Shown piece by piece: positions 54,926-58,133 of a DNA stretch of 58,133 nt. The translations under genes and the position numbers were made by a program. The notes under the pieces were generated by a model. It saw nothing but the letters and a program-made list of their open reading frames with translations, was not told where the DNA came from and ran no database searches. Source of the stretch: Nitriliruptoraceae bacterium (lineage in GTDB: Bacteria > Actinomycetota > Nitriliruptoria > Nitriliruptorales > Nitriliruptoraceae); assembly GCA_007133465.1 (NCBI GenBank), contig SLMP01000030.1, positions 1 to 58,133 of the forward strand, written 5' to 3'. How positions within the stretch are numbered: position 1 is the first letter of the stretch; every line of letters begins with the position of its first letter.

Positions 54926-56473
54926 TCACACCCCAGCGCTGCGGGCGATGATCGGGTCGAGATGCTCGAACTTGGCCAGGTACGCCGCCCGGTCGGCCTG
55001 CAGCTGCTCGACGATCATCTTGTACTCGTCCATGCGGCCCTGCCGCTCGTAGAGCTTGCGGGGCTGGAGCAGCTCCTCGTCGTCGAAGCCCGGCATGCTG
55101 GTCGCGACGAAGTAGCCGAAGTCCGGGTCCTCTTCCCACTCGATCGTGCCATCGACGATGCCGTGCTGGACCGCTGCCGAGTGCGGGATCTTGACCTTCT
55201 TGGACCGCTCGTCGTCGTCACCGCCACCGACCCGCCCCGTGTTGAGCAGGTAGACCTCGAGGTCGCACGACGCGAGCAGCTCGAGGAACCGGTTGCCCAT
55301 CGAGGACTCCTCCTCGAACCAGAACGGGTTGGTGCCCGGCACGCGCAGGCTCTTGCCCGCCTCGTGCGCTCCGCCGGCCGAGGTGCCCTTGGTCTCGCCG
55401 AGCATGAAGTAGTAGGCGGCCTGTTCCGGCTTCAGTTTCGCGACGGCCGGGATGATCGCTTCGTTGCGGTTGAGGATGAAGAGGTAGTGCGCCTGGGGTA
55501 GGTCGCGAGGGTCGCGGTGACGGATGTGCTGCAGCCCGAAGGTCACCCGGCCGTTGGCGGTGTAGCTGTCGTCGAAGAAGTCGACCTTGCCGGTCTTCCG
55601 GTCGACCGACACCGACTCGAGCCACGCCTCCGGGGAGGTCGCGCCGCCGTAGATGGTCGGCTCGTCGTCGGGGTCCAGGCCGTAGGACTTCGCGAAGCAG
55701 CCGTCCTCGGTCGTGTAGACCTTGCCGCCCGGCATCAGCGCGATGAAGTCGTCCTGCACCGGCAGTGAACCCTTGACGTTGCGGAAGGTCGTCGTGGTCT
55801 TGCCCGTGCCCGACAGGCCGATGATCAGCGCGAGCTTCTCCTCGCCGTCCGGGGTCTCCTCCGCGGGGAAGGTCTTCGCGCCCGAGTGCATCGCGAGGCC
55901 GCCACGCTCGTAGATGAGCTTGTTCCACATGCGCAGGCCGCCCATCTTCGACTCACCGAAGTAGTCGGAGCCGAAGACGCGGGTGGTCCAGGTGTCGTAG
56001 TCGACGAGGATCAGGCACTCCTCGTGATGCTCGGGCACCCGCAGCGTCGGGGTGTAGATGACCGTGAAGTCCGGCTCCCAGTCACCGTCCTTGTCGAAGA
56101 ACAGCTGCTGCTGCATCGCCGGGACGTTGGAGTGGGCCTTCTCCATGTACAGCCGCGCCGCGGTCCGGAAGCCCGGGTCCGGGCCGATGTAGCCCTCGAT
56201 CAGCACCATGTCCTGCTCGGCGATGTGGGCATCCTGCTTGGCGGCCCACTCCGCGGCCTCCGCGCGCGACATCGTCTGCTTGACGTTCGGCCCGTCGGTG
56301 ACGACGAAGGTCGACGGGGTCAGACGCGCGAGGATGCGAGCGGTGTAGTTGATGTTGCCGAACTCGGTCTCGACGATGCGGTCCTTCGGCATCAGGTCGA
56401 GAACCCAGCCACGCAGCTGCTCCTGCGTGGGGTTGGCCTCCACCGAGCGGGCTTGCGGCAGTTCCATGGCCAC
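54926..56473 (-). CDS. pckA: Phosphoenolpyruvate carboxykinase (ATP)
   Basis: 515 residues from GTG 56473, with AGGAGG 6 nt upstream, which decides against the longer frame from 56560. It converts oxaloacetate and ATP to PEP and CO2 for gluconeogenesis. Kinase-1a loop IIGLSGTGKTTTTF (about 218-231), kinase-2 QDDFIALMPGG, EDGCFAKSY, substrate site GSDYFGESKMGG, and C-terminal NTGRVGGG. Most actinobacteria have the GTP enzyme; this is the ATP family. Confidence 0.95.
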   Translation of the reverse strand: MAMELPQARSVEANPTQEQLRGWVLDLMPKDRIVETEFGNINYTARILARLTPSTFVVTDGPNVKQTMSRAEAAEWAAKQDAHIAEQDMVLIEGYIGPDPGFRTAARLYMEKAHSNVPAMQQQLFFDKDGDWEPDFTVIYTPTLRVPEHHEECLILVDYDTWTTRVFGSDYFGESKMGGLRMWNKLIYERGGLAMHSGAKTFPAEETPDGEEKLALIIGLSGTGKTTTTFRNVKGSLPVQDDFIALMPGGKVYTTEDGCFAKSYGLDPDDEPTIYGGATSPEAWLESVSVDRKTGKVDFFDDSYTANGRVTFGLQHIRHRDPRDLPQAHYLFILNRNEAIIPAVAKLKPEQAAYYFMLGETKGTSAGGAHEAGKSLRVPGTNPFWFEEESSMGNRFLELLASCDLEVYLLNTGRVGGGDDDERSKKVKIPHSAAVQHGIVDGTIEWEEDPDFGYFVATSMPGFDDEELLQPRKLYERQGRMDEYKMIVEQLQADRAAYLAKFEHLDPIIARSAGV

Positions 56474-56650
56474 GGTGAACCTCCTGGGGGCCACCTCGCG
56501 CGGCGGCCGTCGCTGACCTGAGCCCCTCGCCGGGGCCTTGCGCCCGACCGTAGTCGTCACGCTGGATCGGAACCGTTCCGTAGGACACCCATCGGAGGGG
56601 ACCTCCGGCCCCGAACGGGTTGTGGGCCCTACCCGTGTCCGGACGAAAGC

Positions 56651-56699
56651 TTCTTACCCGGCGTCGGGGGGGCTATGCTGAGCCACCACTTCGGCTCAG
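56651..56699 (+). promoter_or_regulatory. Promoter and leader hairpin of the repeat-peptide gene
   Basis: TTCTTA (56651-56656) and TATGCT (56674-56679) are separated by 17 nt, close to a sigma-70-type promoter and the best in the window. A 7-bp hairpin, CTGAGCC (56678-56684) and GGCTCAG (56693-56699), would be at the mRNA 5' end. Confidence 0.55.
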
Positions 56700-56718
56700 T
56701 CCCGCAAGGAGGCTGGAG

Positions 56719-56955
56719 ATGCCGCATCGCAAAAAGATCCTGCTGCTGGCCGCACTCGCGGTTCTCGGCCTCGTGCTTCTCGCTGCTGTCCCGGCTCCGA
56801 GCGGCATCAGCTGGCTCGGCGCCATCTGGACCAGCGGCATCAGCTGGCTCGGCGCCATCTGGACCAGCGGCATCAGCTGGCTCGGCGCCATCTGGGCCAG
56901 CGGCATCAGCTGGCTCGGCGCCATCTCGGCCGACGGCATCAGCTGGCTCGGCTGA
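56719..56955 (+). CDS. Small membrane or secreted peptide of five GISWLG repeats
   Basis: 78 residues, AAGGAGG 6 nt before ATG (56706-56712). The N-terminus MPHRKKILLLAALAVLGLVL is a classic signal sequence or single anchor (basic, then hydrophobic, ending AAVPAP at about 27). Everything after it is repeat: four 11-residue units SGISWLGAIWT/A/SA and a final DGISWLG ending at the stop. Each unit has Trp at positions 5 and (in the first three) 10. The tail has no charge except one Asp in the last unit. No family is recognised. Own promoter, leader hairpin and strong ribosome binding site suggest high expression. It could be a structural, pore-forming or processed peptide. It precedes a membrane PAS sensor by 106 nt. 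Confidence 0.78.
   Translation: MPHRKKILLLAALAVLGLVLLAAVPAPSGISWLGAIWTSGISWLGAIWTSGISWLGAIWASGISWLGAISADGISWLG
56800..56952 (+). repeat. 33-bp in-frame tandem repeat
   Basis: Units at 56800-56832, 56833-56865, 56866-56898 and 56899-56931, plus a 21-nt partial unit. GGCATCAGCTGGCTCGGC is identical in all five copies; the first two units are identical throughout. Because 33 is a multiple of 3, the opposite strand also stays open, giving false reading frames. Confidence 0.95.
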
Positions 56956-57049
56956 CCTTCTGCGGATCCACCGACCCGCTGACGGCGGCTCGCCGAGGCG
57001 CCCGACGGGCTTACGGTCGTCGGACGGGCGACCCCTTCCTTCTTTGTCG

Positions 57050-57061: not shown

Positions 57062-58133
57062 ATGACGCCGGAGCCTGCGGGAGGCGGCGCCGTGGTCGCC
57101 ACACCGGATCGGGACACCACACGCGCCCCTGATCGCTTCATGGTCGCCTGGGTCCTTGCCGCTGGTGTCCTGGTGGCCGCGATCGTGGTAATTGGCGATC
57201 ACCGTGTGTGGTCGAAGGTTGGGATCACTTCGATCGTGCTGTACATCGGCGCGGTCGTCGCAGCAGAGCGGATCGAACTCCGGCTCAGCCTCGAGCCGCG
57301 GCACGCCGCCTTCACCCTCATCGAGGTCGCGATCACCGCGGGCCTGCTGTTGCTGCCCGGCACGGTCGTGGTCGTCGGCGCCACGATCGGCACGACGATC
57401 AGCCAAATGCTCCGGGGACTACGCGGCGCGCCGGCGTGGTTCAACGTTGCCATCGCGACGGTCGGCAGCGCCGTTGCCGCCGGCGTGATAGCCATCTTCC
57501 CCGTCGTTGGCCCCCTCGTCGCCGAGCGACCGATTGCTGGCGCCCTCGTCGGGATGCTCGGCTACGCCGCAGTCAACGCCGCCGCGATCTCTGGCGTGGT
57601 GCTCCGCTCCTCCATACCCCAACCTGCTGAGGAGCTCCGTCGGCAGTTCCCCTTCTTCATCAGCACGACGTTCGGTACGACTGCCGTCGGCGTCGTCGTC
57701 GCTGCCCTCTGGATGACCGAGCCTGTTCTGTCCCTCCTGGCGCTCGTCCCCGCAGCCGCGATCTACCTGGCGGCCCAGGGGTCGTACCGGACGAGCCAAC
57801 TGCTCTCAGAGGTGCGAACCGAACGAGACCGATTGACGTTGGTGGTCGATGGCGCGTCTGACGGCATCATCCTGCTCGGCCGATACGGAGAGGTCCGGCT
57901 GTGGAGCCGAGGCATGGAAGCGATGACCGGGATCACTGCGGAAACTGCGGTGGGGCAGGCCGTCGCTGATCTGCTGACCGACGCCCGGCGGCGCGCGATG
58001 GACAACGTCCGAGGCGCCTGGTTGCTCGACGGGCCGGCCAAGGGCGCGTTCGGGCGACGGAAGCATCGTGAGCTCAGCGCCACGTTGATCCACGGTGACG
58101 GCACGGCGCGCGAGGTCCGGGAGAGTCACGCGC
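57062..58133 (+). CDS. Membrane PAS-domain sensor protein, 3' end outside the window
   Basis: At least 357 residues with no stop before the window ends. After a short hydrophilic N-terminus come about eight hydrophobic helices (from MVAWVLAAGVLVAAIVVIGD to LSLLALVPAAAIYLAAQGSY), arranged like an integral membrane input domain. A short coiled linker (LLSEVRTERDRL) leads to a PAS domain (LVVDGASDGIILLGRYGEVRLWSRGMEAMTG). The output domain, probably histidine kinase or GGDEF/EAL, is not visible. Codons such as ATA, GTA, ATT and GTT are more frequent than in neighbouring genes, a hint of different origin or weaker selection. It may sense something connected with the repeat peptide encoded upstream; that is speculation. 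Confidence 0.82.
   Translation, partial: MTPEPAGGGAVVATPDRDTTRAPDRFMVAWVLAAGVLVAAIVVIGDHRVWSKVGITSIVLYIGAVVAAERIELRLSLEPRHAAFTLIEVAITAGLLLLPGTVVVVGATIGTTISQMLRGLRGAPAWFNVAIATVGSAVAAGVIAIFPVVGPLVAERPIAGALVGMLGYAAVNAAAISGVVLRSSIPQPAEELRRQFPFFISTTFGTTAVGVVVAALWMTEPVLSLLALVPAAAIYLAAQGSYRTSQLLSEVRTERDRLTLVVDGASDGIILLGRYGEVRLWSRGMEAMTGITAETAVGQAVADLLTDARRRAMDNVRGAWLLDGPAKGAFGRRKHRELSATLIHGDGTAREVRESHA

Follow-up and report, generated by a model that had tools for sequence, protein, structure and literature searches.

A tryptophan-repeat peptide gene beside a MASE9-like sensor kinase suggests a family of peptide signals

What does a gene encode when, behind a signal or anchor sequence, its product is little more than a tryptophan motif repeated several times? 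The question is raised by an open reading frame (ORF) near one end of a contig of 58,133 nucleotides from a Nitriliruptoraceae bacterium, the whole of which was analysed and is here called the window. The ORF lies at 56719-56955 (+), with its ATG at 56719 and its stop codon at 56953-56955, and it is supported both by the ORF list and by homologues. Its 78 codons specify a protein of 78 aa, MPHRKKILLLAALAVLGLVLLAAVPAP followed by two copies of SGISWLGAIWT and one each of SGISWLGAIWA, SGISWLGAISA and DGISWLG. A sequence-only reading had described a small secreted or membrane peptide made of GISWLG repeats, and five such units are indeed present at 56800-56952 (+), the last one partial. The claim that the DNA repeat is nearly perfect was borne out by Tandem Repeats Finder, which reports a period of 33 bp, 4.6 copies, 96% matches, zero indels and a score of 271, the highest of any tandem repeat in the window. 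In the peptide frame GC at the third codon position of the repeat is 100%. The N-terminal signal peptide or anchor (56719-56796, +) was recognised by inspection as MPHRKK plus a hydrophobic run with a possible cleavage site after VPA; export is to this extent apparent.

The other elements attributed to the gene fared unevenly. The Shine-Dalgarno sequence AAGGAGG is found at 56706-56712 (+), 6 nt ahead of the ATG. The 5' leader does contain the reported hairpin, with 8 bp formed by GCTGAGCC/GGCTCAGT at 56677-56700 (+), but its stability is no greater than that of shuffled sequence (z -0.23) and is usual for the composition. What had been called the strongest promoter of the window gave no match in a consensus scan that covers promoters of the sigma-70 type only, so that this claim lacks support. 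As the same reading supposed, the 78-aa peptide belongs to no family in Pfam, NCBIfam or PHROGs, and the Pfam pentapeptide families gave zero matches.

That reading, which is partly supported as a whole, missed the gene immediately downstream. At 57062-58132 (+) the window encodes the first 357 aa of a predicted sensor histidine kinase. Since the window is an entire contig, the gene leaves through its end; another contig of this genome (G000:C119, from 26259 downwards) overlaps the window by 120 bp and supplies 276 more aa, for a total of 633 aa with the order PAS-HisKA-HATPase. The PAS domain was found inside the window, HisKA scores 57.8 bits on C119, and HATPase is represented by motifs in the C119 continuation and by a Pfam match in the homologue from genome G023. 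It is by these three domains that the neighbour is assigned to the sensor histidine kinases. In the spacer between the peptide and kinase genes, a terminator-like hairpin with a T-rich tail (57015-57043, +) is a possible attenuator that could yield more peptide than kinase; two such elements were found against 1.1 expected by chance. On the other side, a PEP carboxykinase (PEPCK) gene at 54929-56560 (-) diverges from the peptide gene. A reverse-strand reading indicates that several relatives (G016, G019, G025) also seem to have PEPCK next to the sensor, and the peptide/kinase pair therefore appears to occupy a conserved spot. From their isolate names, we read two related metagenome assemblies, both of a Nitriliruptoraceae bacterium, as coming from soda-lake sediment.

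The N-terminal multi-TM domain of the kinase (57137-57808, +) can be placed in the MASE9 superfamily. It matches our profile A2 with E 4e-78, a value obtained with a profile that includes this sequence. Compared directly with Pfam MASE9 (PF20972) the window domain falls below the cut-off. PF20972 does match two of 12 sensor-profile members, one of them at 6e-7, and a homologue on G019:C103 passes it with 28.5 bits against a cut-off of 24.3. In the reverse direction, profile A2 recovers the MASE9 loci L250 (2e-12) and L262 (7e-10). Through its close relatives, the window sensor is thus predicted to be homologous to MASE9. Glu and Asn residues conserved in the membrane domain include E44, N103 and N147 in the numbering of A2, and Thermus and Thermotoga also possess MASE9 proteins. 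The outputs attached to sensors of this kind are HisKA, HisKA_3, GGDEF-EAL or HD-GYP. A search of PDB sequences with the sensor and Trp-tail profiles gave no match, and AlphaFold2 models of the sensor domain from three sequences were all-helical with a pLDDT of 46, too low to use.

The sequence-only reading had proposed that a lack of homologues even in close relatives, together with a lack of transcript, would indicate non-coding repeat DNA; homologues were in fact found. A search with the full peptide was weak because the motif is too short, with G023 as its sole strong match, and progress came through the neighbouring gene. A profile built from the window peptide and the G023 homologue extended the set to G012 and G028 and, with weaker matches, to G007, G009 and G020. 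All confident or borderline matches to this profile, with the exception of a borderline one in G038, are directly followed by a homologue of the window kinase. The homologues carry GISWVG and GISWT/GFSWT repeats (10-12 motifs), QGLSWLGLSWL, or single C-terminal motifs such as AWSWFR and QGISWF, and others, 42 aa long, have GWVWIR or GWIWIR at the C-terminus. The earlier suggestion that copy number may vary agrees with this range of 1 to 12 motifs among relatives. Among the three 42-aa peptides dN/dS is 0.18-0.40, consistent with what is expected of translated, constrained sequence. One sensor of the small-peptide clade (L182, G016:C159) adjoins PEPCK and has no recognisable Trp peptide, possibly as a result of peptide loss.

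How general is the pairing? Many of the compared genomes are fragmented assemblies. A profile of the kinase membrane domain matches in 68 of 396 genomes of the phylum, and at 55 of 81 sensor loci that were read the gene just upstream carries Trp motifs. Thirty-nine of these upstream genes encode large proteins whose C-termini bear Trp repeats such as SAASWSAASWS, GRSWIGRSWIG and DSRTWDSRTWD; those that were examined are subtilases. One further gene is cut short by a contig end, and the other 15 encode small proteins with 1-12 motifs of the types GISWVG, GISWT, GWVWIR, EVRWN and STTWS. A recognised Trp partner is absent upstream at the remaining 26 of 81 loci, some of which are at contig ends. 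Chains of at least three similar Trp motifs occur upstream of 44 of 78 sensors and of none of 19 HisKA controls (Fisher 2.5e-6), in a sample biased by a profile made from sensors with Trp neighbours. Two further tests, which start from the tail or from Pfam MASE9, are free of that bias. A profile of the Trp-pentapeptide tail alone recovered 31 different genes from these genomes. At 23 of them the same strand encodes a sensor domain 0-700 bp further downstream, and at two more it lies within 2.5 kb; the Trp-tail subtilases with no adjacent sensor include those on G048:C10 and G241:C50.

Several loci met in these surveys deserve mention in their own right. In five subtilase-type proteins (L131, L136, L137, L149, L168) the Trp-pentapeptide tails are very regular, with up to 31 similar motifs, which suggests homogenisation of repeats within the gene. 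In family f17 (L140/L141/L151) the sensor is preceded by 36-38-aa peptides with two STTWS motifs, or about seven in L141, and these peptides have no signal peptide. At an unrelated locus, L007 (G056:C190, 2-950, -), a 316-aa ORF contains RYLLGIWSSS tandem repeats.

The third survey took loci by PF20972 alone, in the class and the phylum, and called small ORFs by simple rules; an ORF was counted if it had 20-32 aa, a signal-peptide-like segment and a Trp within its last five residues. Such ORFs are present at 29 of 49 MASE9 loci; the antisense strand has them at 0 of 49, and among HisKA controls they occur at 1 of 17. Examples are MSKRIFLAMASLAALVLSSGANVSWIR, MKKLSPRVISVLTALTALMAAGGASRHIW, MKTKIIVLLTSLAALVLGGGAGWRW and MARFFKLIFSLVGLGSTVRW, the last of which occurs twice in tandem. 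At L312, L314 and L329 the tiny ORF is doubled in tandem (MKKLMRVLIALGSLVGICSTVRW; MARFFKLIFSLVGLGSTVRW) before MASE9-HD-GYP genes. When five tiny peptides were made into a profile, 24 were found in the class (L274-L297). These are signal-peptide ORFs of 25-29 aa ending in Trp, and in many of them the start codon is preceded by a conserved leader, CTCGATGGAGGTG. Wherever the sequence extends far enough, a multi-TM protein lies downstream of the 24, recognised as MASE9 by Pfam in most cases and with HD-GYP or HisKA_3 output where tested. The median pairwise dN/dS among thirteen of these peptides, of 25-28 aa, is 0.40.

A tree of the sensor domains bears on the history of the pairing. A single group (SH-aLRT 97) unites those Nitriliruptoraceae sensors that have small peptides, and it is sister to sensors paired with subtilase tails. 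Trp peptides that stand alone are found on at least three branches of the tree, among them those of families f17 and f5. The protease has therefore been gained and lost, whereas the Trp motif has remained with the sensor, and this constancy of the motif beside a varying protease is the main reason to see the motif as what the sensor needs. On these comparative grounds it is the Trp motif rather than the protease that is conserved as the sensor's partner. We lean cautiously to a wider view, in which Trp-terminated micro-peptides, Trp-repeat proteins and Trp-tailed subtilases would make up one phylum-wide family of extracellular signals for sensors of the MASE9 superfamily, acting through histidine kinases or directly on c-di-GMP enzymes; on this view, the peptide of the window would be a multi-copy precursor derived from a protease tail, the protease having been lost.

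For the window itself, we consider that the peptide is probably an exported ligand, or the precursor of a ligand, of the adjacent MASE9-like sensor. The putative ligand gene is linked to the putative receptor gene across taxa, and export is read by inspection from the signal sequence. The 78-aa protein would leave the cell by the general secretion route and would display on the outer side of the membrane a short motif, present several times and composed of G, a hydrophobic residue, S, W and another hydrophobic residue. This motif, either freed by cleavage or still within the repeat, would bind the membrane-embedded sensor domain, and binding would alter the activity of the PAS-HisKA kinase, in whichever direction. 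Such a signal might pass between cells or address the cell that makes it. In relatives the same type of ligand would act on GGDEF-EAL or HD-GYP enzymes and thus on c-di-GMP. The repeated copies may provide more ligand per transcript, or a multivalent ligand; elsewhere the same motif is found as a single C-terminal copy that follows a signal peptide, or as the repeated tail of a secreted subtilase. Among the four roles first offered for the peptide (structural, pore-forming, signalling or processed), the comparative evidence favours signalling, perhaps by way of a processed peptide. A pore-former was rejected, since the motif has one or two Trp and single-copy versions exist.

The strongest rival, which we nevertheless think unlikely, is that the peptide is a small single-pass membrane subunit whose Trp C-terminus touches the sensor from outside, with nothing released. 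MgrB and SafA are small membrane regulators of other kinases. The tiny partners would suit such a role, since they are 20-32 aa long, contain a hydrophobic segment and extend only 0-3 residues past the Trp, and a subunit gene would show the same adjacency to the sensor gene. However, in 34 of 43 tiny peptides the Trp tail is immediately preceded by a small-residue site that resembles one for signal peptidase, the motif occurs up to 31 times in the tails of secreted subtilases, distant from membrane segments, and a single anchored subunit would not need five copies.

Might the Trp repeats instead be an envelope-binding or solenoid module, akin to pentapeptide repeats, with the sensor reporting the state of the envelope or the protease and the motif being no ligand? 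The strict five-residue register of the subtilase tails invites this idea, and one tail weakly matches Pentapeptide_4 (2.4e-4, below the cut-off). Since the window peptide and the single-motif peptides do not keep that register, many partners have one Trp only and are too short for a solenoid, and many pairs have no protease, we judge it improbable. Least credible of all, to a degree that makes it almost negligible, is that the ORF is an accident within a repeat of selfish or non-coding DNA. It is true that the 33-bp repeat leaves all frames open and that the opposite strand carries a 170-aa ORF. But the peptide frame is supported as coding because related genomes keep motif, position and neighbour alike; the in-frame motif, the Shine-Dalgarno sequence and the signal sequence are retained despite divergent DNA, and dN/dS for the related peptides is below 1.

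Comparison with known systems helps to define what would be new in the proposed exported ligand. ComX is a short exported peptide with a key Trp residue, encoded beside the multi-TM histidine kinase ComP. Because of the Trp, ComX-ComP (ComQXPA) is the nearest analogue, and the window likewise has a short, apparently exported Trp peptide encoded beside a multi-TM histidine kinase. It differs in its multi-copy or protease-tail ligand, its MASE9-like sensor and the presence of HD-GYP and GGDEF-EAL among the outputs; by inspection rather than by profile, no ComQ-like gene was noticed among the neighbouring ORFs. PMC13290415, which cites the paper on the ComX structure, describes prenyltransferases acting on a C-terminal Trp, such as PalQ. 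The likeness to MASE9 (PF20972) and other MASE domains is one of superfamily, all being multi-TM sensors at the N-terminus of kinases and of c-di-GMP enzymes. MASE1 has a protein partner: in E. coli, RdcA docks on this domain of DgcE (PMC6510439). In the open-access papers searched we found no literature on MASE9, including what it detects or a Trp-peptide partner, nor on Trp-repeat subtilases or these peptide sequences; other papers may exist. In Agr a peptide ligand is sensed by a membrane kinase, and other pheromones are made by signal peptidase. Here, unlike Agr, the system has no thiolactone and a different receptor domain, and no AgrB-like gene was noticed nearby. Yeast alpha-factor is of the type in which an exported precursor carries repeated ligand units. 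The window peptide resembles it as a multi-copy, apparently exported precursor, but it is bacterial, its repeat lacks conserved dibasic sites and its processing is putative. Pentapeptide-repeat proteins (PF00805, PF13599) share the five-residue register of the subtilase tails; the tails differ in placing Trp at the central position, and the window peptide in having an 11-residue unit.

As a whole, these results suggest an undescribed family of tryptophan-peptide signals for MASE9-type sensors. A conserved Trp-peptide partner offers a concrete ligand hypothesis for the MASE9 sensors of histidine kinases and c-di-GMP enzymes, and it draws attention to very small genes, of 20-32 aa, that are perhaps often unannotated. 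Taken together, the forms with a subtilase tail, with many copies and with a single copy would afford a rare insight into the evolution of a peptide signal.
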